37,221 bases of DNA. Origin: a virus. Positions 1,514 to 31,741 of this stretch are shown here, in pieces (position 1 is the first letter of the stretch; each line of letters opens with the position of its first letter). The position numbers and the translations under genes are program-made. The DNA is taken from IMG/VR virus record IMGVR_UViG_3300025806_000079, positions 1 to 37,221 of that record; one strand, written 5' to 3'. The notes beneath the pieces are model-generated. The model saw nothing but the letters and a program-made list of their open reading frames with translations, had not been told where the DNA came from and searched no databases.

Positions 1514-3369
1514 GTGGCATATCCAATCAAGTACACTTTTAATCCTGCACCAGCCGTACTCGACCCGACTCCGTCAACGTCAATAGTCATCAAAGCATTG
1601 TCTGCTAACGCTGGCCCTGCACCGCCAATGACTGCTGCCGTAGCTGCCGTTCCAGAGGTCTTTTCTCCAGCGTCGATTGTCAGCTTCGTAGTCAAAACCG
1701 TACTTCCCGCCTCATTTATATCGACGGTCAAAACTGACCCAACGGGGGCTGTAGTCACCCCAGCCTTAACGCCCGTCAACGTAAACGCATAGGGCATATG
1801 GAATGTAACTACCGCTGTACCCGCTGCCGTAGCTGTGACTTCATCGCCGCAAGCTATGGCTATCGTCTGCTTTAGGTGGGTCTGATCTATAGCAACAACT
1901 GAGCCTGTCTTGGTTAAGCCAGTGCCTACTGTGATCTGTGAAAGGTTTACGCCTACCCAGTTGTCAGGGCTGTTGTCATCACTTACGAATTGGATTTGTG
2001 CATTAACGTCTGTCAGAGTAATGTTAGAAGCTGATCCGTTTAGAGTGTCTGTTCCAGATCGTGCAAAGATTAAAGAGTTAGATGCAGACGTTTTCTGAAA
2101 CGCATACTTAACACCTTCACTTGTTCCAATGGCAGGGAGTGTAACTGTAATGTTGTTGCTTGATGTATCACAAAGATAGTATGTGCCATCAGCAGATAAC
2201 GCTGGAGAAATAGCTGCACCTGTCTGATTTACAACAGTACTATATATCTGCCCAGATGCCGCAACGGATGCACTAGCCGCCGCATTAGCTGCATACTTCT
2301 TTGCAGAGAACACACCGCCAGCTACCGCTGTTCCTTCCGTAAATGAACTGCCACCACCTAACGCCCATTGCTTAGATGATCCTGTAGTGAGAGTAGTTCC
2401 TAGTGCATACTCTTTACTAGAAAATTCACTCGTATCAACAGCGGCCCCTGTTGTAGTAGCCCACTCTTTTGCGGCTCCACGACTGCCAGTGCTGGTGACG
2501 TTTGTACCTCCAACCGCCCAAGCTTTAGAACTAAAGTCTGAACCAGTTACAGCACCATTAATTTTAGTTGCGTAGTTGGTTGCGAGTGTTGCTTGAGCCG
2601 TTGCTTTAGCTGAGTAATGTAAAGCAGAGAATGTTCCTGCTCCAGCAACAGTATCGTCTTCTGGATTAGAAGCCCATTCTTTCGCAGCTCCTTTGCTCGA
2701 AGTGTCGGTTATGCCCGTTCCACCAACAGCCCAAGCTTTTGAACTGTGGTCACTACCCGCCGCAGCGCCGTCAACTTTAACAGCATACGCTACTGCCGTA
2801 GCAGCAGAGGCTACTGCTTCATCTGCTTTGGTAGAAGCAGTAACCGCACTTGCAGCCGCCGCAGTCGTAGCAGCGCCGGGGTCATCAGCTTCTTCTAATG
2901 CAGTTAGCCCAGCGTTCCAACGAAATGTTTTTAAGGCAACAGGTGTAGGAAGCGTTGTGTCTACTCCTGATGTATCACCATCAGACAGTTTAAACGATCT
3001 ATCAACCTCTGTGTTGATTTGTTGCGCCATCATTGTTGCCCGATCAAGCTCTTGCTCAACTAGGTCAGACGGAAAAGCGTCGTTCTCAACTAGGTCTAGC
3101 CCTTGTGTAAGGCCAACTTCACGAATAATAACTAGTGTTTCTCCAGACGCAGGAGCTGTACCCATAGTAACCGTGCCGCCAGACGCGTCACCCGCACCAG
3201 TAATAGTGTAATGCGTGGTAATAGTCTTTGTTGTCTCAGCGCCTGTGCTGTTTACAACAAGAATAACCTTGAGGTCTGCGTTGCTGAAAAACAAGTAACC
3301 AAACGAAAAAGCGGTTGTGCTTCCGTTGCCTGAGTAACTTACGCGGTTTACTGTAGAGCTTATGGTCAT
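1510..3369 (-). CDS. Tail fibre protein with T7 gp17-like N-terminus
   Basis: A 619-residue virion protein. The first ~150 residues (SYSGNGSTTAFSFGYLFF, then LVIIREVGLTQGLDL, then LDRATMMAQQI) match the tail-attachment domain of T7-type fibres. Residues ~165-385 form an Ala/Ser-rich shaft built from degenerate repeats of the form GSDxSSKAWAVGGT followed by GAAKEWA. The last ~110 residues (TFHMPYAFTLTGVKAG, then VLTVDINEAGSTVLTTKL) are a beta-rich module common at the distal ends of phage fibres, probably the receptor-facing part. RBS AAGGAA precedes ATG 3369. The 38-bp gap upstream contains a GTTTAAAC site (3386-3393). The stop overlaps the next gene. Fibre identity is secure; the receptor is unknown. 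Confidence 0.85.
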   Translation of the reverse strand: MTISSTVNRVSYSGNGSTTAFSFGYLFFSNADLKVILVVNSTGAETTKTITTHYTITGAGDASGGTVTMGTAPASGETLVIIREVGLTQGLDLVENDAFPSDLVEQELDRATMMAQQINTEVDRSFKLSDGDTSGVDTTLPTPVALKTFRWNAGLTALEEADDPGAATTAAAASAVTASTKADEAVASAATAVAYAVKVDGAAAGSDHSSKAWAVGGTGITDTSSKGAAKEWASNPEDDTVAGAGTFSALHYSAKATAQATLATNYATKINGAVTGSDFSSKAWAVGGTNVTSTGSRGAAKEWATTTGAAVDTSEFSSKEYALGTTLTTGSSKQWALGGGSSFTEGTAVAGGVFSAKKYAANAAASASVAASGQIYSTVVNQTGAAISPALSADGTYYLCDTSSNNITVTLPAIGTSEGVKYAFQKTSASNSLIFARSGTDTLNGSASNITLTDVNAQIQFVSDDNSPDNWVGVNLSQITVGTGLTKTGSVVAIDQTHLKQTIAIACGDEVTATAAGTAVVTFHMPYAFTLTGVKAGVTTAPVGSVLTVDINEAGSTVLTTKLTIDAGEKTSGTAATAAVIGGAGPALADNALMTIDVDGVGSSTAGAGLKVYLIGYAT

Positions 3370-3407: not shown

Positions 3408-5873
3408 CTACCGAAAAGCACTACTCAAATCTGGCGCTCTTGTAGGTAGTAGTTTTCCAGCTTCCCACCACATACCTCGCCCTTCCTCGTCTAAGTCATT
3501 AATTTTCTTAGTTGCTCTGTTTTGAAAATTAGGGTCTAAATCTTCAAGTATAAATTCATCTACAAGTGATGTTATGGCTCTATCTACATACCAAAGGTGT
3601 GAACCGGGAACTATTTTTCTTAGCGTTCCAACAAGTTGCTGGACAATCTTAGTGTCCTCACCTTGTAGTGCGCTTTGTGCGTTTCCTACAGTTAACTCTG
3701 CAAAACCATCCAATGCAGCGGCAGGAGCGCCTAACAAACTTTTAAAAAACCCGCCGCCGTATCTGTTTACATCGGATGTTAAGAAGTCTGCAAACAAAGA
3801 TAACCCCCCACCCCGCGCTACTGCGTCAGGCCAAAACGTAGGGTCTGTAAATGGGTTCATACTGCGAGGGTCTTCACCACGGGACATGACGTGAATTTGT
3901 TCAGATAGTGCGCCAGCAGCGGTAAGATATGCTAAAAACGTAACAAAATATTTACCTTTATTTAAAGCACCTTCCCGCGCCATACCTTCTGCAAGATGTT
4001 TCATCATTATAGTAATAGGGAAATTTTTAAATACGGCAACTGATCTAAGCACTTCACCTTTAAAAGTACCAGCGGTAGTGCCACCAATCAACACTGATTT
4101 AGCTTCAACAGACGACGTAGGAACTGCCATCTCTAATAAGTTCTGATTGTACGCGGTAAATTTTGCAAAAAGATCATTTGCTACGTCTGCACTTATATCT
4201 GTGCGATGGATCATGTCGTTAAGGTTTAAAAATTTTGCGCCTTTGTGGTCAGTTAATTCTGTTTGACGCACAATATCCCAATCTTCAGCGGTAATACCTG
4301 CACGTTCCATACTCTCTTTAAAATCTATTTTATCAAAAGTTTTGTTTACGTTACGCGCATAACTACCCATCATCTCTAATGAGAATGTGTTTCGGGACAT
4401 TTGAGTGTGATGGCTTAACAAACTTAAACGCAGAGCGCCTTCGGTAAGTCGTTGCGCCCATTTAGGGCCAAACGGGTCGCCACCAAAACGTTCGGCTGCT
4501 GCTAAATTACCTAAAGCTAAATCATTAACTACACCCATCTGACGGGCAAACTCACGGTCAGCTTTACTAGCTGGGTTAATCATTTTTAAGTAGGAAGCTA
4601 TGGGAGACATAGCTTTGTGTCCAGACAAACGTGACACAGATTTCATAGTAGCTATGTCGCCCGGTGCAGCAGAAAAAATAGCTTTACCTAATAGCGCGCC
4701 GGGTAGTAGCGTCCGTATTGTACTCATAACAATTCCAACGTTATTAAGTTCAACATCTGCGTTACGTCCGGTTACAAAACCAAACACACTATCTGAGTCA
4801 TTTATATCTCTTGACACACTGTGTAACAATTTTTTTTGAGTTTTAAGGTCACCTTTTGTTTGCGCTTCATCTACCAATTGGCTTGTTCGCATCTTTACAG
4901 CAGCCTCTAAACGGCGTTTCATTATAGAGGGGTTAGGTCCAAGCACTTGTAGTTGAGCTAAATCGCGTGACGCTTGGCCCATGTAGTCAATAAGCTGATC
5001 AATTAACGTTCCTCGACCATACTCACTTTGCATACTAGACCACGATTCCGGTGTTTTATACCGCAAAAAACGTTTGTTAGTTAAACGGCTGGCTACCCCT
5101 ACTTCTGGGCGATAGTCAAAAGTAATTTTGTTTAAACCGCCTGTAGTTATTGTTGTATGTACTTCACCTAAAACACGAACGCGGTCACTCTCTTCTATTA
5201 TTTTCCCGCCGTTAAATTGTTTCATGTGTTCCCAATCTAACACACCGTCACCATTATGGTCCTCAATCCACTTATCTCTGTTTTTAGACATTTTACCAAC
5301 GTCGTGCATTTGAGGCGCGTGAAAATTGGGGTCTTCTACCATGTCTACCCCTGCGGCTTTAGCCAGACGAGCAAAGTCCGCGTACATTTCTTTAGTAGCT
5401 TCAGATAACCCTTTTGCAGCCGTGCTTTTTGTGTCCTTACCGTATAACTCTTTAATATAATCGTCTAAACCCGCTTTTGAACGGAATGCCCCAATTACCC
5501 GTGTGTCGTATTTATCAAGCATATCAACCATTAAACCGTTAAAACGCCCTAAATAACCACGCGAAACATATTCAACTTCCGAATATATCTTAGTTAACTC
5601 TTTACCGGGGCGATTTTTTAATTTCATAATACGGTCAGTTAGTCGTATCTGTACCTGCGCGTCACGAATGCGGCGAGCTTGATCCGCTGAGTTTTTAAAA
5701 GTTTTTGCTTCTATTAGTTCGGCGGCGGCAGCACTTTCGGCTCGTTCACGCGGAACACCGTCACCTAACATCTCATTAACGCGGCTGTCAAATTGATCTA
5801 GTAACACTTTAGCGTCTTCATGCTTTGCGTGTTTGCTACCAATACTTTCTACAATACAATTTCTATACGACAT
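3408..5873 (-). CDS. Large internal virion/ejection protein (821 aa)
   Basis: Third and last of three very large proteins encoded between the gp14-like core protein and the tail fibre, the place where T7-like phages encode gp15 and gp16. No enzymatic motif was recognised. It is mostly helical and charged, with hydrophobic stretches near residues 390-410 (LPGALLGKAIFSAAPGD) and 625-655 (FPITIMMKHLA, then YFVTFLAYLTAAGALS). Such stretches would suit a protein inserted into the host envelope during DNA ejection. Start ATG 5873 lies one base past the upstream stop (TAATATG). The ejection role is inferred from position and size. A large polyvalent-protein-type domain is possible but not shown. Confidence 0.65.
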   Translation of the reverse strand: MSYRNCIVESIGSKHAKHEDAKVLLDQFDSRVNEMLGDGVPRERAESAAAAELIEAKTFKNSADQARRIRDAQVQIRLTDRIMKLKNRPGKELTKIYSEVEYVSRGYLGRFNGLMVDMLDKYDTRVIGAFRSKAGLDDYIKELYGKDTKSTAAKGLSEATKEMYADFARLAKAAGVDMVEDPNFHAPQMHDVGKMSKNRDKWIEDHNGDGVLDWEHMKQFNGGKIIEESDRVRVLGEVHTTITTGGLNKITFDYRPEVGVASRLTNKRFLRYKTPESWSSMQSEYGRGTLIDQLIDYMGQASRDLAQLQVLGPNPSIMKRRLEAAVKMRTSQLVDEAQTKGDLKTQKKLLHSVSRDINDSDSVFGFVTGRNADVELNNVGIVMSTIRTLLPGALLGKAIFSAAPGDIATMKSVSRLSGHKAMSPIASYLKMINPASKADREFARQMGVVNDLALGNLAAAERFGGDPFGPKWAQRLTEGALRLSLLSHHTQMSRNTFSLEMMGSYARNVNKTFDKIDFKESMERAGITAEDWDIVRQTELTDHKGAKFLNLNDMIHRTDISADVANDLFAKFTAYNQNLLEMAVPTSSVEAKSVLIGGTTAGTFKGEVLRSVAVFKNFPITIMMKHLAEGMAREGALNKGKYFVTFLAYLTAAGALSEQIHVMSRGEDPRSMNPFTDPTFWPDAVARGGGLSLFADFLTSDVNRYGGGFFKSLLGAPAAALDGFAELTVGNAQSALQGEDTKIVQQLVGTLRKIVPGSHLWYVDRAITSLVDEFILEDLDPNFQNRATKKINDLDEEGRGMWWEAGKLLPTRAPDLSSAFR

Positions 5874-7851: not shown

Positions 7852-10151
7852 TCAAAACTCTCGTAGTAGTTTTCAAGTTTGTTAAGGTCCATTATTAAAA
7901 CTTTATTAGAACCGGGGTGGCGTAAATACTTGTTAGTACCCTTATGTTGCACACGATATTGACCATCACCAACGTACCTAAAATGACTGTTTGATAGTAA
8001 TTTTTCTCCAGTAACCGTGTTACCTTGTTGATTAACCGGAACAACCCCATCAAAGACTTGCAACATAATTTCTTCGTTATCTAAACTTGTTACTGCGTTT
8101 TCAAAATATTCTTCTGTTTTTCCTATAGGTAAGACTAGTCGGCTGTTGTTACGAGGAATAATAGTTCCGCCATGAACTTCTTTTATTAACTTTTTTACAT
8201 CACTATTAGTAATTTTAACAGTACCTGATGGCAAACCTCGTTTAACATACAAACCTTCAAGAGCAGCATACATACCTTCTTTAACATGATTAGGCATATT
8301 CATAAAAGCATCACCTATTTCTGTGTTAAACACTTCACGCAAACCAGACGACGGTAAATTTTTAGAACCATTAGGTTGTTCTAACGTTTTTCGACCTTGC
8401 TCAATTTCTAAAGCAATTGTTAAGTGTTGATCGTGGGAAGCCATACCTGCTACATACCCTGTACCAGAAGCTCCTTTTTCGCTTAATTCATTAAACACCT
8501 TGTACGAGTCTGGCCCACCCGTACCGACTATAGTGCGATACAATTCTACGCGTTGATTAGCATCCATTTCAAATATTGCTGTCTGAACTTGTGAAAGCTC
8601 TTCTGGCAGAAAAAATTGATAGTTTTCAACTCCATATTTATTTTTAGCCTCGTTTGCAGCAGTAAAACGGTCTTTTAAACTACTGGAAGATTTAATATCT
8701 ATTGGTGGTATATCCATGTTTCCTGATTGGGCAGCCCATGAAATCGGGCCTTTTTTAGTAAGTACGTTTTGCATTTCTTTTAAATACGCGCTATGCAACT
8801 TTATTGTTTCTGCTTCAACCGTAGAAATGCCATCTGTTCTTTCTGCATGAAGACTAAAAGCAGCAACATAAGCTTGCGTATTCGCTAAAGTTAAGTCACT
8901 TTTAGCTACCCAACCTCTGTGCAATCCTTCGTTTACTAAATTAGTCATTTTGCGTAATACGTCAGGGTCATCTATACTTGGGATTAGAGCTTGTATCATA
9001 ACCACGTCTTTTATAGGTAATTCACCTAGCTCTGCAACTGGCAAAAGTGCGGCTATCATATCACGTCCGGCGGCATTAGCTTCTGTAGTTTTCTTTGATA
9101 AAATACTACGAGCAGCTTTAACTTGCATAAACTCTAATTCAGTGGCTGGTTGTCCCTGCTGCGGCCCCGCAGTTAAAAAAGCGTTTACTTCTGGCACGGA
9201 CATTTTACTAGCTTCAACACGCCAATCTTTAAACGCATGAAGCCGGGTTAAACTTGCGTGAGCTATGGGGTCGTCTGACAACTTCCCTAATGTTGTAAGT
9301 TGTGTCATCTCACTGCTGCTAACACCAAAACCTCCAATAAGTCTTTCACGTACAGAATTAATTCCTATCCTAAAAGCGGTGTTACTTTTGTTTTGTTGGT
9401 TTAATGCTTTAGCGTCTAATTGATTTTTCTTGTTGTTAGCTGAAAGGGTAATTTGACTTAATCCCGCTGGACTTAACTGTGTCTGCCAGTAATCCCCTGT
9501 AAGCATTTCTATAACACTATCAGGGTCACGGTGTACCTCACCGACTAATGTGCGGTAAGCAAGGTCTTCGCGAAACTCGCGTTCAACTTCAAGTTTTGCG
9601 TCGTCTGATATACGCGAATCTTTAATTGTTTCTAATCCTTGTTCAAGACTTCCTGTAAACATTTGAATGTCTTGGTACGCAGCGTTAATGCCAGCAGAAA
9701 GCGTATTCTTAGTATTTAAAACGTTTAAACGTGTTCTAGACACTGTTTCAAAGTCTACTGCTTTCCCGACCAGAGTACCCTTTAAACTTTCAAGCTGTTT
9801 TGCTAAATGTTTTTTAGCCGTTGAAGTAAGCTTATCGCTCCCTAATTTTGTAGCCGACCATGTATCAAAATCGTCTTTTACCGTTTTAGTAAAACCATCA
9901 GCGCCCGCTACCGCAGCGGCTTCGCTAGTCTTCAGTCTTTCGGCCCACTCGCTCCGACCTTCCATGTAAGTTAAATCAGCGTAGCTTTTACTGTCGCGCT
10001 CTGTTTTCTCTGCTACAAAATCACCAAAACCGGATATATCTTGCCCCGCGCTAATAAGCCCTTTACCACCCCCACCCATTGAGGCAACATCGGCGCGAGC
10101 AGTTTGCGGGACAAATCTAACATTACCTGCTGGAGTTATTTTGTTAGCCAT
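7848..10151 (-). CDS. Internal virion protein (767 aa), gp15-like position
   Basis: First of the three large internal proteins, directly after the gp14-like gene, with RBS AAAGG before ATG 10151. The N-terminus (PAGNVRFVPQTARADV, then GLISAGQDISGFGDFV) matches the style of phage core proteins at this locus. The body is a long helical, charged protein with no signal peptide and no catalytic motif I can recognise. The last ~80 residues (YVGDGQYRVQHKGTNKYLRHP) look like a small beta domain. It contains an in-frame GTTTAAAC at 9723-9730. It probably forms part of the inner core or ejection tube; this is inference from synteny. Confidence 0.6.
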   Translation of the reverse strand: MANKITPAGNVRFVPQTARADVASMGGGGKGLISAGQDISGFGDFVAEKTERDSKSYADLTYMEGRSEWAERLKTSEAAAVAGADGFTKTVKDDFDTWSATKLGSDKLTSTAKKHLAKQLESLKGTLVGKAVDFETVSRTRLNVLNTKNTLSAGINAAYQDIQMFTGSLEQGLETIKDSRISDDAKLEVEREFREDLAYRTLVGEVHRDPDSVIEMLTGDYWQTQLSPAGLSQITLSANNKKNQLDAKALNQQNKSNTAFRIGINSVRERLIGGFGVSSSEMTQLTTLGKLSDDPIAHASLTRLHAFKDWRVEASKMSVPEVNAFLTAGPQQGQPATELEFMQVKAARSILSKKTTEANAAGRDMIAALLPVAELGELPIKDVVMIQALIPSIDDPDVLRKMTNLVNEGLHRGWVAKSDLTLANTQAYVAAFSLHAERTDGISTVEAETIKLHSAYLKEMQNVLTKKGPISWAAQSGNMDIPPIDIKSSSSLKDRFTAANEAKNKYGVENYQFFLPEELSQVQTAIFEMDANQRVELYRTIVGTGGPDSYKVFNELSEKGASGTGYVAGMASHDQHLTIALEIEQGRKTLEQPNGSKNLPSSGLREVFNTEIGDAFMNMPNHVKEGMYAALEGLYVKRGLPSGTVKITNSDVKKLIKEVHGGTIIPRNNSRLVLPIGKTEEYFENAVTSLDNEEIMLQVFDGVVPVNQQGNTVTGEKLLSNSHFRYVGDGQYRVQHKGTNKYLRHPGSNKVLIMDLNKLENYYESFE

Positions 10152-14399: not shown

Positions 14400-14431
14400 T
14401 GGTGTTTCCTAGCTTTAACCCGTAAAGAAAC

Positions 14432-14459
14432 GGTGGAGAAGTGTTTAAACTTCTCCACC
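14432..14459 (-). terminator. Hairpin between the 153-aa virion gene and tail tubular A
   Basis: A perfect 11-bp stem, GGTGGAGAAGT / ACTTCTCCACC, encloses a 6-nt loop, and a GTTTAAAC site (14443-14450) spans loop and right arm. On the minus strand it is followed only by GTTTCTTT. It may be a leaky terminator or RNA-stability element that lowers tail expression relative to coat. The structure is seen; the function is inferred. Confidence 0.55.
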
Positions 14460-15798: not shown

Positions 15799-15994
15799 GG
15801 TTAATATGCCTTCCTTCTATCCGGTTAAAAACAGAGCTGGAAGGCTTATCCAAGAAACTTGGGGCCAAACTAATAAGGCTGGTTACTGGCCCGAAGGTTA
15901 TCAGAGGTAGCCGTTTCGTACACCATCATTGGTGCGCTTGATGCAAGATTATTACGTCAACTACAAAAAAGCAACCCGTTTGTTATTTTTTATT
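15799..15994 (-). promoter_or_regulatory. Untranslated leader of the coat gene
   Basis: The largest gap in the virion operon. It contains a small hairpin (CACCA/TGGTG around 15922-15935, minus-strand loop ATGA) and ends with a strong GAAGGAAGG-type ribosome site. On the minus strand T6 follows CAAACGGGTTG near its upstream end, possibly a weak terminator for the scaffold transcript. I found no convincing sigma-70 promoter. A regulatory leader boosting coat synthesis is plausible but unproven. Confidence 0.35.
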
Positions 15995-23040: not shown

Positions 23041-23058
23041 GATCTTGAAAGGATCACA
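23041..23058 (+). repeat. Leader repeat copy 1 carrying the ribosome site
   Basis: GATCTTGAAAGGATCACA, identical to copies at 23733-23750 and 24683-24700, each just before a start codon. The AAAGGA core sits in an imperfect GATC-to-GATC palindrome that could hide it in a small hairpin. Here the spacing to ATG 23066 is longer (12 nt) than at the other copies (8 nt). Confidence 0.8.
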
Positions 23059-23065
23059 CCCAAAA

Positions 23066-23665
23066 ATGAATATCATTCACTCAACAAAAGAACAGTGGTT
23101 ATCCAACGCGGTTTTAGAATTAGAAAACGAATTCAATCTTGAAGGCCTTCATATGCCCGCAAAATGGCGCATCTCGTCGGGCTTTCCTTCTAAGGGCGGA
23201 CTAGCTGCAAAGAAAAGAACAATAGGTCAGTGTTGGTCACCAGAAGCTTCAAAAGACGGTACGACAGAAATCATCATCTCAATTACGCAAGATGATGAAA
23301 CAAAAATACTTGGCGTTATAGCTCATGAAATGTGCCACGCGGTTTTAGGTATTAAAGCGGGCCATGGTCCACTATTCAAGAAACTAGCAAACTCAATAGG
23401 TTTAGTTGGCAAAATGACAGCGACAGAAGAAAGCGAAATCTTTTTTGATCGTATCGTTGCAATGTTGGGGCGTTTGGGTGGTTTCCCACACGCGGCGTTG
23501 GACGCGTCAATCGGTATCAAAAAACAATCAACGCGGATGATTAAAGTAACGTGTAACGATGAAATGGTGGGTTTAGACTGTGGAATGATTTTCAGAACAT
23601 CCGCAAAATGGACCGAAAATACTTTACAATGCCCACGGTGCAAAAGTGATACGACAATTGGTTAA
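23066..23665 (+). CDS. SprT-like zinc metalloprotease
   Basis: 199 residues from ATG 23066, preferred over an upstream TTG (23024) because the leader repeat with its ribosome site directly precedes it. Zinc-protease motif HEMCH is at 87-91 with a third ligand candidate at His100 (GHGPLFKKLA), the SprT/Spartan layout. A C-terminal zinc ribbon has cysteines 163, 172, 189 and 192. In cells this family cleaves proteins cross-linked to or bound on DNA. A phage copy among early genes may remove host or defence proteins from DNA, which is inference. All catalytic residues appear intact. Confidence 0.8.
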   Translation: MNIIHSTKEQWLSNAVLELENEFNLEGLHMPAKWRISSGFPSKGGLAAKKRTIGQCWSPEASKDGTTEIIISITQDDETKILGVIAHEMCHAVLGIKAGHGPLFKKLANSIGLVGKMTATEESEIFFDRIVAMLGRLGGFPHAALDASIGIKKQSTRMIKVTCNDEMVGLDCGMIFRTSAKWTENTLQCPRCKSDTTIG

Positions 23666-23680
23666 CTGATTAGTTCTAAA

Positions 23681-23725
23681 TGGCACCGTTTAAACGCACG
23701 GTGTCATTAAGAAACAATCGGTTTC
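23681..23725 (+). other. Paired hairpins in leader cassette 1
   Basis: Stem TGGCACCGT / ACGGTGTCA (23681-23689, 23698-23706; one G-T pair) has GTTTAAAC across the loop edge. It is followed by GAAAC/GTTTC (23711-23715, 23721-23725), then the leader repeat and the next start. There is no T-run, so it is more likely an RNA processing or stability element than a strong terminator. Confidence 0.5.
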
Positions 23726-23732
23726 AATTAAT

Positions 23733-23750
23733 GATCTTGAAAGGATCACA
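23733..23750 (+). repeat. Leader repeat copy 2 carrying the ribosome site
   Basis: Exact copy of the 18-bp leader at 23041. Its AAAGGA lies 8 bases before ATG 23753. Confidence 0.85.
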
Positions 23751-23752
23751 CA

Positions 23753-23956
23753 ATGATTAAGAAAATAGCGGTTTTAAGTTTTTTATGTTTTGGCAGCGTC
23801 CTATTTTTAATGGGCGTGTGGGCTATTGAATTCATGCGGACCACCACTATTAGCCACATGACACCACACGACTGGTTGCAAGCGGTTACTATGGTTTTAA
23901 TCCCAATGTTGAGCGGGTTATTTTTCATACTTGTTTCGGTTTTCCATAGTAACTAA
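23753..23956 (+). CDS. Small two-span membrane protein (67 aa)
   Basis: Two hydrophobic segments at about residues 4-27 (IAVLSFLCFGSVLFLMGVWA) and 43-64 (AVTMVLIPMLSGLFFILVSV) are joined by a polar loop (RTTTISHMTPHDW). Lysines near the N-terminus suggest an N-in, C-in topology. It is preceded by leader repeat 2. Phage early membrane proteins of this size include superinfection-exclusion factors and host-energy modulators, but nothing specific identifies this one. Confidence 0.65.
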   Translation: MIKKIAVLSFLCFGSVLFLMGVWAIEFMRTTTISHMTPHDWLQAVTMVLIPMLSGLFFILVSVFHSN

Positions 23957-23975
23957 TTTTTGAAAGGGTTTTATT

Positions 23976-24290
23976 ATGTTAAAACAATTACCATACGAAG
24001 CGGTCAAAAACGAATTAGATTATTTGCAGTCAATTGATCCAAACGCGCCGGGTAAAACATTCAACCACTCGAGCCATACGTTCGCTCAATACGCAAATAT
24101 GCAAGCAAATCATTTCCTTTATTCTGGGTATCGGATATCTGCAATGGATGCTTTACAAGTTCGCGACATCGCAAAACCTGATTTTCGTTCGCATTATAGA
24201 GTGGTTCCCGGTTTCAGTGTCTATAAAACATTTGTTTTTGTTTCCGATTGTTATGTTGAATTACAAAATGAGTTGAGGGAAACACTATGA
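23976..24290 (+). CDS. Hypothetical early protein (104 aa)
   Basis: Soluble, Tyr/Phe-rich protein (HTFAQYANMQANHFLYSGYR, then AMDALQVRDIAKPDFRSHYR) with RBS TTGAAAGGG before ATG 23976. No recognised family. Its stop overlaps the start of the next tiny gene as ATGA at 24287, so the two are coupled. Confidence 0.6.
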   Translation: MLKQLPYEAVKNELDYLQSIDPNAPGKTFNHSSHTFAQYANMQANHFLYSGYRISAMDALQVRDIAKPDFRSHYRVVPGFSVYKTFVFVSDCYVELQNELRETL

Positions 24291-24358
24291 ACAACTTAGC
24301 ATCCTGCGCCATTGCACTTTGCACCGTATTATTTGCACTAATATTGATAGGGGTCTAA
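24287..24358 (+). CDS. 23-aa hydrophobic peptide
   Basis: ATG 24287 overlaps the upstream stop (ATGA). It encodes MNNLASCAIALCTVLFALIL then IGV, a single membrane span with two cysteines. The stop TAA is followed two bases later by the next start. The tight coupling supports a real micro-gene despite its size. The function cannot be inferred. Confidence 0.45.
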   Translation: MNNLASCAIALCTVLFALILIGV

Positions 24359-24360
24359 TC

Positions 24361-24621
24361 ATGAAAATTAAAGAAATTAAAAACGAACTTCGTATAGGCC
24401 AATGGTCTTGGCCCGGTGGATATCCTAAATACTTTATAACTGAGGATGGCGCAACGTTATCTTATAAAGCGGTTTATGATAATTTTAATTTAGTTTGCCA
24501 AGAACATTTAACAGACAATTGCACGGGTTGGCGGTTGGCGGGCGTGGATATTAATTGGGAAGATGAAAACCTGATTTGTGAACAAACAAACGAAAAAATA
24601 CAATCAGCATACGGGGAATAG
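24361..24621 (+). CDS. Hypothetical early protein (86 aa)
   Basis: Start ATG 24361 is chosen because AGGGG lies 7 bases upstream and it follows the previous stop by two bases. Trp/Tyr-rich and acidic (GQWSWPGGYPKYFITEDGA, then WRLAGVDINWEDENLICEQT). No family recognised. Ten bases after its stop begins the second hairpin cassette. Confidence 0.55.
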   Translation: MKIKEIKNELRIGQWSWPGGYPKYFITEDGATLSYKAVYDNFNLVCQEHLTDNCTGWRLAGVDINWEDENLICEQTNEKIQSAYGE

Positions 24622-24629
24622 TTTCCGCC

Positions 24630-24676
24630 TATGGCAGCGTTTAAACACGTTGCCATATGGGAAGCGATTTTGCTTC
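24630..24676 (+). other. Paired hairpins in leader cassette 2
   Basis: Stem TATGGCAGCGT / ACGTTGCCATA (24630-24640, 24647-24657; one G-T pair) has TTAAAC as loop, so GTTTAAAC forms its apex. It is followed by GAAGC/GCTTC (24661-24665, 24672-24676). The arrangement repeats cassette 1 with changed arms, so pairing rather than sequence is kept, which supports an RNA role. Confidence 0.55.
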
Positions 24677-24682
24677 TAATAT

Positions 24683-24700
24683 GATCTTGAAAGGATCACA
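24683..24700 (+). repeat. Leader repeat copy 3 carrying the ribosome site
   Basis: Exact copy of the 18-bp leader at 23041 and 23733. Its AAAGGA lies 8 bases before ATG 24703. Confidence 0.85.
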
Positions 24701-24702
24701 CC

Positions 24703-24846
24703 ATGCCAAGCTTTGAAATGATTATGCCAAACGGCAAAACTATTGATTTAACAAATAAGGTAAAAACCGCCAAAAACGATAAAGACATTAAAACCGCGTT
24801 GATTGACGCGTTGAAATCTGAAAGTAAAAAAGGGGCAGCAAAATGA
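24703..24846 (+). CDS. Hypothetical 47-aa protein
   Basis: Product begins MPSFEMIMPNGKTIDLTNKV and ends DALKSESKKGAAK. It is lysine-rich and probably alpha/beta. The leader repeat with its ribosome site sits 8 bases upstream, and the stop overlaps the next start as ATGA (24843-24846), which together make translation likely. No family recognised. Confidence 0.6.
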   Translation: MPSFEMIMPNGKTIDLTNKVKTAKNDKDIKTALIDALKSESKKGAAK

Positions 24847-25061
24847 GAAATACAAGAATTTGCACTCAGCAAAAATTGACGGCTCTTAAGAATAATTGGG
24901 TTGAGATTGTAAATATGTTTGTTCCAATAAAAAAAGACGGTACGCCAGATTTTAGAGCTAAACCTAAAAAAGGTCTCCGTTCAATTCACGTCCATAAAAA
25001 TGGACACAAGAAATATTACGCCGCAAGCGGCGCGCTTAAACTTGAAAGGTTTGTAAAATGA
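24843..25061 (+). CDS. Hypothetical basic protein (72 aa)
   Basis: Lysine/arginine-rich (FRAKPKKGLRSIHVHKNGHK, then KYYAASGALKLERF), suggesting nucleic-acid contact, with no recognised domain. Coupled at both ends by ATGA overlaps (24843-24846, 25058-25061). Its last codons contain CTTGAAAGG, the ribosome site of the next gene. Confidence 0.6.
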   Translation: MRNTRICTQQKLTALKNNWVEIVNMFVPIKKDGTPDFRAKPKKGLRSIHVHKNGHKKYYAASGALKLERFVK

Positions 25062-25373: not shown

Positions 25374-25405
25374 ACGCCCTACGTTCACGCGTAGGGCGTT
25401 TCTTT
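25374..25405 (+). terminator. Rho-independent terminator inside the early run
   Basis: A 10-bp stem, ACGCCCTACG / CGTAGGGCGT, with 6-nt loop TTCACG is followed by TTCTTT. It separates the early hypothetical genes from the XRE-type regulator, so the regulator would be made only by read-through or from its own start. Confidence 0.75.
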
Positions 25406-31664: not shown

Positions 31665-31685
31665 AGTAATCCCTTTCAAAGATGT

Positions 31686-31713
31686 GCCGGGGTGACGCGC
31701 ACCCTACCCCGGC
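31686..31713 (-). promoter_or_regulatory. GC-rich hairpin in the polymerase leader
   Basis: A perfect 8-bp stem, GCCGGGGT / ACCCCGGC, with a 12-nt loop lies 22 bases before the polymerase start and just 5' of its GAAAGGG site. A second small stem (CTGA/TCAG) lies upstream. There is no T-run, so it is better read as a translational or RNA-stability control than a terminator. Autoregulation by polymerase, as in T4 gp43, is an analogy only. Confidence 0.45.
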
Positions 31714-31741
31714 GAGGGCTGAAAGGCTCAGTCGGGAGAAA

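Follow-up and report, generated by a model that had tools for sequence, protein, structure and literature searches.

Judged from its sequence, the 18-nt element GATCTTGAAAGGATCACA, found before three start codons of an uncultured phage, is one version of a small hairpin at the ribosome-binding site (RBS). Hairpins of this class have 4–5-bp arms, a C–G closing pair and UUGAAAG between them, with the ATG usually 4–7 nt after the 3′ arm. Because many unrelated phages keep the hairpin with different, still matching arms, an RBS of this type seems to be a widespread, and little-studied, phage way to start protein synthesis.

The window – the whole stretch of DNA analysed here – is a 37,221-bp IMG/VR record. 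Among the products of the phage are a DUF2800 protein, a PolA-like protein, a capsid protein (Phage_capsid_2) and a portal (Head-tail_con). The terminase has its closest matches in uncultured Caudoviricetes, followed by phages like Pseudomonas phage AF, with identities of 47% or less. A blastn search of the region against cultured phages and plasmids gave no match.

Hairpins and leaders in the window

Exact copies of the 18-mer lie on the plus strand at 23041–23058, 23733–23750 and 24683–24700, followed by ATG codons at 23066, 23753 and 24703, just as a sequence-only reading of this DNA had claimed; the window holds no further copies, even with three mismatches allowed (shuffle mean 0.03). The first copy is the bare 18-mer, without upstream hairpins: its RBS hairpin (23041–23055, GATC-TTGAAAG-GATC, with ACA continuing to 23058) stands 10 nt, arm to ATG, before an SprT-like gene (23066–23665, plus strand), whose start codon aligns with Arthrobacter phage Elezi gp44; the hairpin is absent from the SprT relatives L080–L087. 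The second and third copies form plus-strand hairpins at 23732–23748 (UGAUC-UUGAAAG-GAUCA) and 24682–24698, and another plus-strand hairpin with other arms, overlooked in the sequence-only reading, occupies 25038–25052 (AAAC-TTGAAAG-GTTT, ATG 25058) and is weak on its own (−1.9 kcal/mol).

Copies 2 and 3 share the architecture that the earlier reading had described: a first hairpin (H1), then a second (H2), then the 18-mer and the ATG, in leaders that can be aligned end to end. In cassette 2, H1 (23679–23708, plus strand) is an 11-bp stem with loop TTAAACGC and TTAAAC at its apex, and H2 (23711–23725) is a GAAAC/GTTTC stem read from the sequence, which adopts partly other pairing in the fold of the whole leader. 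In cassette 3, H1 (24630–24657, plus strand) is again an 11-bp stem, with loop TTAAAC, and differs from its counterpart by A–U to U–A, C–G to G–U and G–U to G–C changes, while H2 (24661–24676, GAAGC/GCTTC) exchanges A–U for G–C; judged by eye from the sequence, the arm changes break no pair. Folding of the two full leaders, proposed earlier as a check, made both far more stable than dinucleotide shuffles (z of −5.2 for copy 2 and −4.4 for copy 3; 0 of 200 shuffles as stable). The RBS hairpin of these copies is kept in whole-leader folds and lost in folds truncated within H1. The extra 5′ hairpins at these two sites may perhaps act as a stabiliser or a processing site.

A third cassette, also missed by the first reading, lies on the minus strand at 14404–14459, before the ATG (14399) of a late gene of 198 aa (z −4.4). 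Its 11-bp H1 (14459–14432) reads GGTGGAGAAGT-TTAAAC-ACTTCTCCACC, and its RBS hairpin (14431–14404, GUUUCUU...AGGAAAC) shares the CUU...AGG core, which here encloses a longer loop. The H1 stems of the window thus combine one apex with two quite different arm sequences, and stems with a TTTAAA apex and still other arms occur in two relatives, L081 and L082; a search for the cassette family found it in two relatives only. No sigma-70 promoter exceeding shuffles was found at the cassettes.

GTTTAAAC, which sits at the H1 apex, outnumbers every other 8-mer in the genome by a wide margin (27 occurrences, where base composition predicts 0.8), so that the apex might represent a DNA word instead of an RNA signal. 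This word is an 8-bp palindrome lying in coding sequence, in more than one frame, as well as between genes (e.g. at 9723, 14443, 22217 and 28184); it is also frequent in the relatives L081, L083 and L084, and in its abundance it is reminiscent of HIP1 and other highly iterated palindromes.

Further structures lie elsewhere in the window. On the minus strand, an SD-sequestering hairpin (15808–15845, GCCTTCC...GGAAGGC), analogous but of a different motif, precedes the capsid gene with ATG 15798. On the same strand, at 31679–31740, the RBS of the PolA-like gene (TGAAAGG; the start is probably TTG) is able to base-pair with an upstream CCTTTCA across an inner GCCGGGGT/ACCCCGGC hairpin, which might allow translational control. 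On the plus strand, an 11-bp hairpin at 25374–25399, terminator-like with a short T-rich tail, stands immediately upstream of an HTH regulator gene.

Arm pairing and spread across phages

Elsewhere, the hairpin occurs with the arm pairs AATC/GATT, ATTC/GAAT, GTTC/GAAC, GTTTC/GAAAC, GCTC/GAGC, TTCTC/GAGAA, CATC/GATG and AGTC/GACT, and in several cases different arms stand side by side within a single phage. Of 71 TTGAAAG starts unselected for arms, 14 show four or more Watson–Crick pairs; 2000 permutations averaged 2.6 and never exceeded 8. When the core TCTTGAAAGGANC was kept constant and the two outer bases of the left arm could vary, perfect complementarity was seen in 37 of 93 distinct starts, where 1/16 is expected; three GGTC/GACC cases have ORFs shorter than 30 aa and look chance-like. 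The permutation z of covariation peaks, with values of 5.9 and 3.5, at the matching third pair. In the unselected set the hairpin is more frequent at starts with TT than at those with another NN (13/64 against 8/200). The fully unselected alignment, most of whose starts have no hairpin, for that reason shows only a moderate excess of covariation (0.244 against 0.188 in shuffles, 6/500), and in the unselected set sliding by one column gives a similar percentage paired. A first CACA scan did not by itself reach significance (perfect arms in 4 cases, permutation mean 1.7), and an agnostic loop scan was uninformative, as its shuffle left the arms intact. These sequence patterns support selection on the RNA pairing of the arms.

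Capsid genes provide a view by gene family. For one HK97-like capsid gene, itself found through the motif – so that the family was chosen for having the hairpin – 80 relatives were fetched by protein alone, a sampling blind to the motif. The hairpin is present in 33 of 34 distinct leaders, mostly as TGTTC/GAACA; L485 has TAGTC/GACTA, which amounts to two double-compensatory changes, and the 34th leader (L463) combines TGTC/GACA arms with a loop of 8 nt, a deletion on one arm being matched on the other. As the nearest cultured relative of this capsid is that of Pontimonas phage phiPsal1 (38%), these phages are probably actinophages. In a second, unrelated family of major capsid genes the hairpin is dispensable: it stands in about 6 of 50 distinct leaders, a minority that implies gain and loss of the element. 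Four leaders of this family have GCUUCU/AGGAGC instead of GCUCUU/AGGAGC, keeping six pairs with the G–U moved.

The 18-mer itself is not restricted to this phage. An exact scan of viral contigs found it in 16, two of which (L001 and L014) are this phage; among the 14 others, L012 has no ATG behind it, and in about 12 of the 13 further contigs, all without blastn similarity to the window, it lies 1–6 nt before an ATG – a count kept conservative because some of the contigs are interrelated. Contigs carrying the 18-mer range in GC from 0.36 to 0.63, and two (L006 and L010) have two copies each. At up to three mismatches, G001 and G010 contain 4 and 6 copies, respectively, always with both GATC arms (a reversed-pattern control gave zero matches), and in two G010 copies the middle changes to TC or AC with both arms kept. 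The hairpin class as a whole spans about 25 similarity clusters, and its starts overlap an upstream ORF less often than other GAAAGG starts do (8% against 36%). Among the matches listed for cultured phages, none was recognised as a complete GATC hairpin preceding a start, and in Arthrobacter phage Elezi and its relatives only the TTGAAAGGATCACA part of the 18-mer is matched. Cellular genomes gave 38 matches, mostly within coding sequence, with a small number in leaders of Loktanella, Brevundimonas and Planctomycetota.

Taken against the sequence-only reading, conserved RNA structure with compensating arms is supported, by covariation across unrelated phages and far outside this genome, whereas the idea of a phage-specific switch gives way before the spread just described. 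A mobile leader module is conceivable for the homologous copies 2 and 3, but arms mostly differ between, and sometimes within, phages – variation which means that the structure is kept and not one sequence.

Proposed role and its alternatives

A role at the RBS is supported by the position of the hairpin. On balance, we consider it probable that the hairpin is a self-contained, easily melted site for strong, context-independent translation initiation. In such a site, variable complementary arms would close C-UUGAAAG-G, placing the SD (GAAAGGA) across the junction of loop and 3′ arm, one half in each, 4–7 nt before the start codon; the arms would pair with each other and not with the surrounding mRNA, in a hairpin weak enough for the ribosome to open, and a gene behind it would gain strong, predictable translation whatever its context. 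The predicted fold, NNNC-UU-GAA-AG-GNNN, has U–G and U–A pairs inside and leaves AGGA partly paired, the paired 3′ arm including part of the SD, and its mean energy is −4.5 kcal/mol (80 cases). Reportedly, according to de Smit and van Duin, initiation is not limited by hairpins weaker than about −6 kcal/mol.

The GATC-to-GATC palindrome, previously thought able to mask the RBS, does fold, as (U)GAUCUU-GAA-AGGAUC(A), with part of the SD base-paired; under regulated masking, the SD would stay inaccessible until the hairpin is opened by some factor, by temperature or by a timing cue. The AGGA of the SD is indeed paired in the minimum-energy fold, with UCUU opposite it much as in fourU thermometers, and copy 2 gains stability on cooling, with about −4.3 kcal/mol at 37 °C and −8.4 kcal/mol at 10 °C. 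However, the hairpins are weak, the predicted accessibility of the SD does not change when the left arm is scrambled (0.50 vs 0.51) and that of the start codon falls slightly (0.57 vs 0.54, p=0.013), and no Rfam thermometer matches even at E<5. Because of this weakness and the use before major capsid genes, we favour a self-contained efficient site over a lock, and regard a hard mask as unlikely. We are equally doubtful of a binding site through which a trans-acting RNA-binding protein or small RNA, coded by phage or host, would control a regulon. Several hairpin genes per phage, a conserved loop (UUGAAAG or UCGAAAG) and the excess of hairpins at TT starts would suit such a factor, but the loop doubles as SD, so that its conservation is explicable without a protein, and the hairpin spans about 25 contig clusters; a CsrA-type site, moreover, needs an unpaired GGA in the loop, whereas here the stem takes up the GA, and GGA is missing altogether from the AAAC/GTTT copy.

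That the arms are symmetrical as DNA too, with two GATC sites 11 bp apart, raises the prospect of a DNA-level dyad – an operator or Dam-methylation site – coinciding with start codons, and DNA sites were the explanation preferred by Pope et al. for ESAS inverted repeats. Yet many versions of the hairpin have no GATC, single phages mix GATC/GATC with AAAC/GTTT, AATC/GATT or ATTC/GAAT, or TTCTC/GAGAA with CATC/GATG, the core is asymmetric and constantly oriented to the ATG, and some pairing depends on G–U, as in the alternative capsid-leader arms; we consider a dyad very improbable. Separately, UUGAAAG presumably resembles the anticodon loop of tRNA-Phe, a likeness set aside given that UC loops and an expanded loop occur.

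Relation to known systems

The closest known system is SAS/ESAS, and the hairpin is filed as SAS-like, and not as a member, because anatomy and position agree and the consensus does not. In Cluster K mycobacteriophages, SAS are short, near-invariant sequences typically 3–7 nt before the starts of several non-structural genes, about half of them with an inverted repeat (ESAS) just upstream (Pope et al.). The window likewise has a near-invariant sequence at the RBS position, in three exact copies with the ATG 5–10 nt after the arm, and complementary arms round a 7-nt SD core, GATC-N7-GATC here and GGG-N7-CCC (GGG-ATAGGAG-CCC) in the SAS of Anaya and Pixie. GATCTTGAAAGGATCACA does not match the 13-bp consensus GGGATAGGAGCCC within two deviations, and the hairpin further differs in its covarying 4–5-bp arms and in its reach: the 18-mer in the window precedes non-structural genes only, whereas related hairpins elsewhere precede capsid genes. 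The SprT-like gene of Pixie has a SAS, and that of Elezi, 37% identical to the one in the window, starts behind GGG-AAGGAAC-CCC.

ESAS, upstream of a subset of SAS, are imperfect 17-bp inverted repeats with a 4–13-bp spacer; compared by dimensions, the 11-bp inverted repeat of the window, with a 6–8-nt loop before two of three copies, is shorter. The stems here pair with compensation, unlike ESAS repeats, which do not support RNA pairing (Pope et al.), and no promoter is recognisable at the window cassettes, whereas ESAS of Adephagia contain putative promoters (PMC11373665). In Microbacterium Cluster EF, SAS/ESAS comprise ten copies of GGGAAAGGACCCC with a linked upstream motif (PMC7302621); these, too, are RBS-position repeats, with GGG/CCC arms round an AAAGGA core, but their sequence differs and the ESAS-like element has no described hairpin.

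The role of SAS has been an open question since 2011. Pope et al. found the outer SAS bases to be conserved without a 16S rRNA partner and noted the symmetry of GGGNNNNNNNCCC, though the hairpin reading was not made. Arm-to-arm pairing would, by analogy, explain these conserved bases: covarying arms in many unrelated phages suggest that the outer bases pair mutually, which makes the SAS question directly testable. More tentatively, and with somewhat less than even confidence, we propose a structured-RBS class across phages that includes the SAS of cultured actinophages, in which the paired arms and not their sequence would be selected, and which the ribosome or a conserved host factor would read. 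The hairpin also offers a structural rule for predicting the starts of small phage genes, as well as portable expression leaders.

Other RNA elements are more distant. With fourU thermometers the hairpin shares an SD AGGA paired to a U-rich strand in a small hairpin, but it has many copies per genome, and a search with Rfam covariance models, fourU included, gave no match; the GGA exposed in a hairpin loop that marks CsrA/Rsm sites was not found. PeSL (promoter-early-stem-loop) elements of T4-type phages are intergenic stem-loop cassettes repeated before small genes. In the present case the hairpin is the RBS itself, and no promoter was recognised in the window copies.

Two further repeated leaders were seen in passing. 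L081 has another cassette twice (3240–3315 and 3640–3716), before an AAAAGGA RBS, with hairpins ACGCTCC/GGAGCGT and ACGCCC/GGGCGT whose arms again compensate. In L180, L187, L192, L207, L222 and L232, a common leader ending in agaaTCACTTGAAAGGGTTCACAATG lies behind many genes and constitutes another RBS repeat, with outer arms GAA(T)/(G)TTC.
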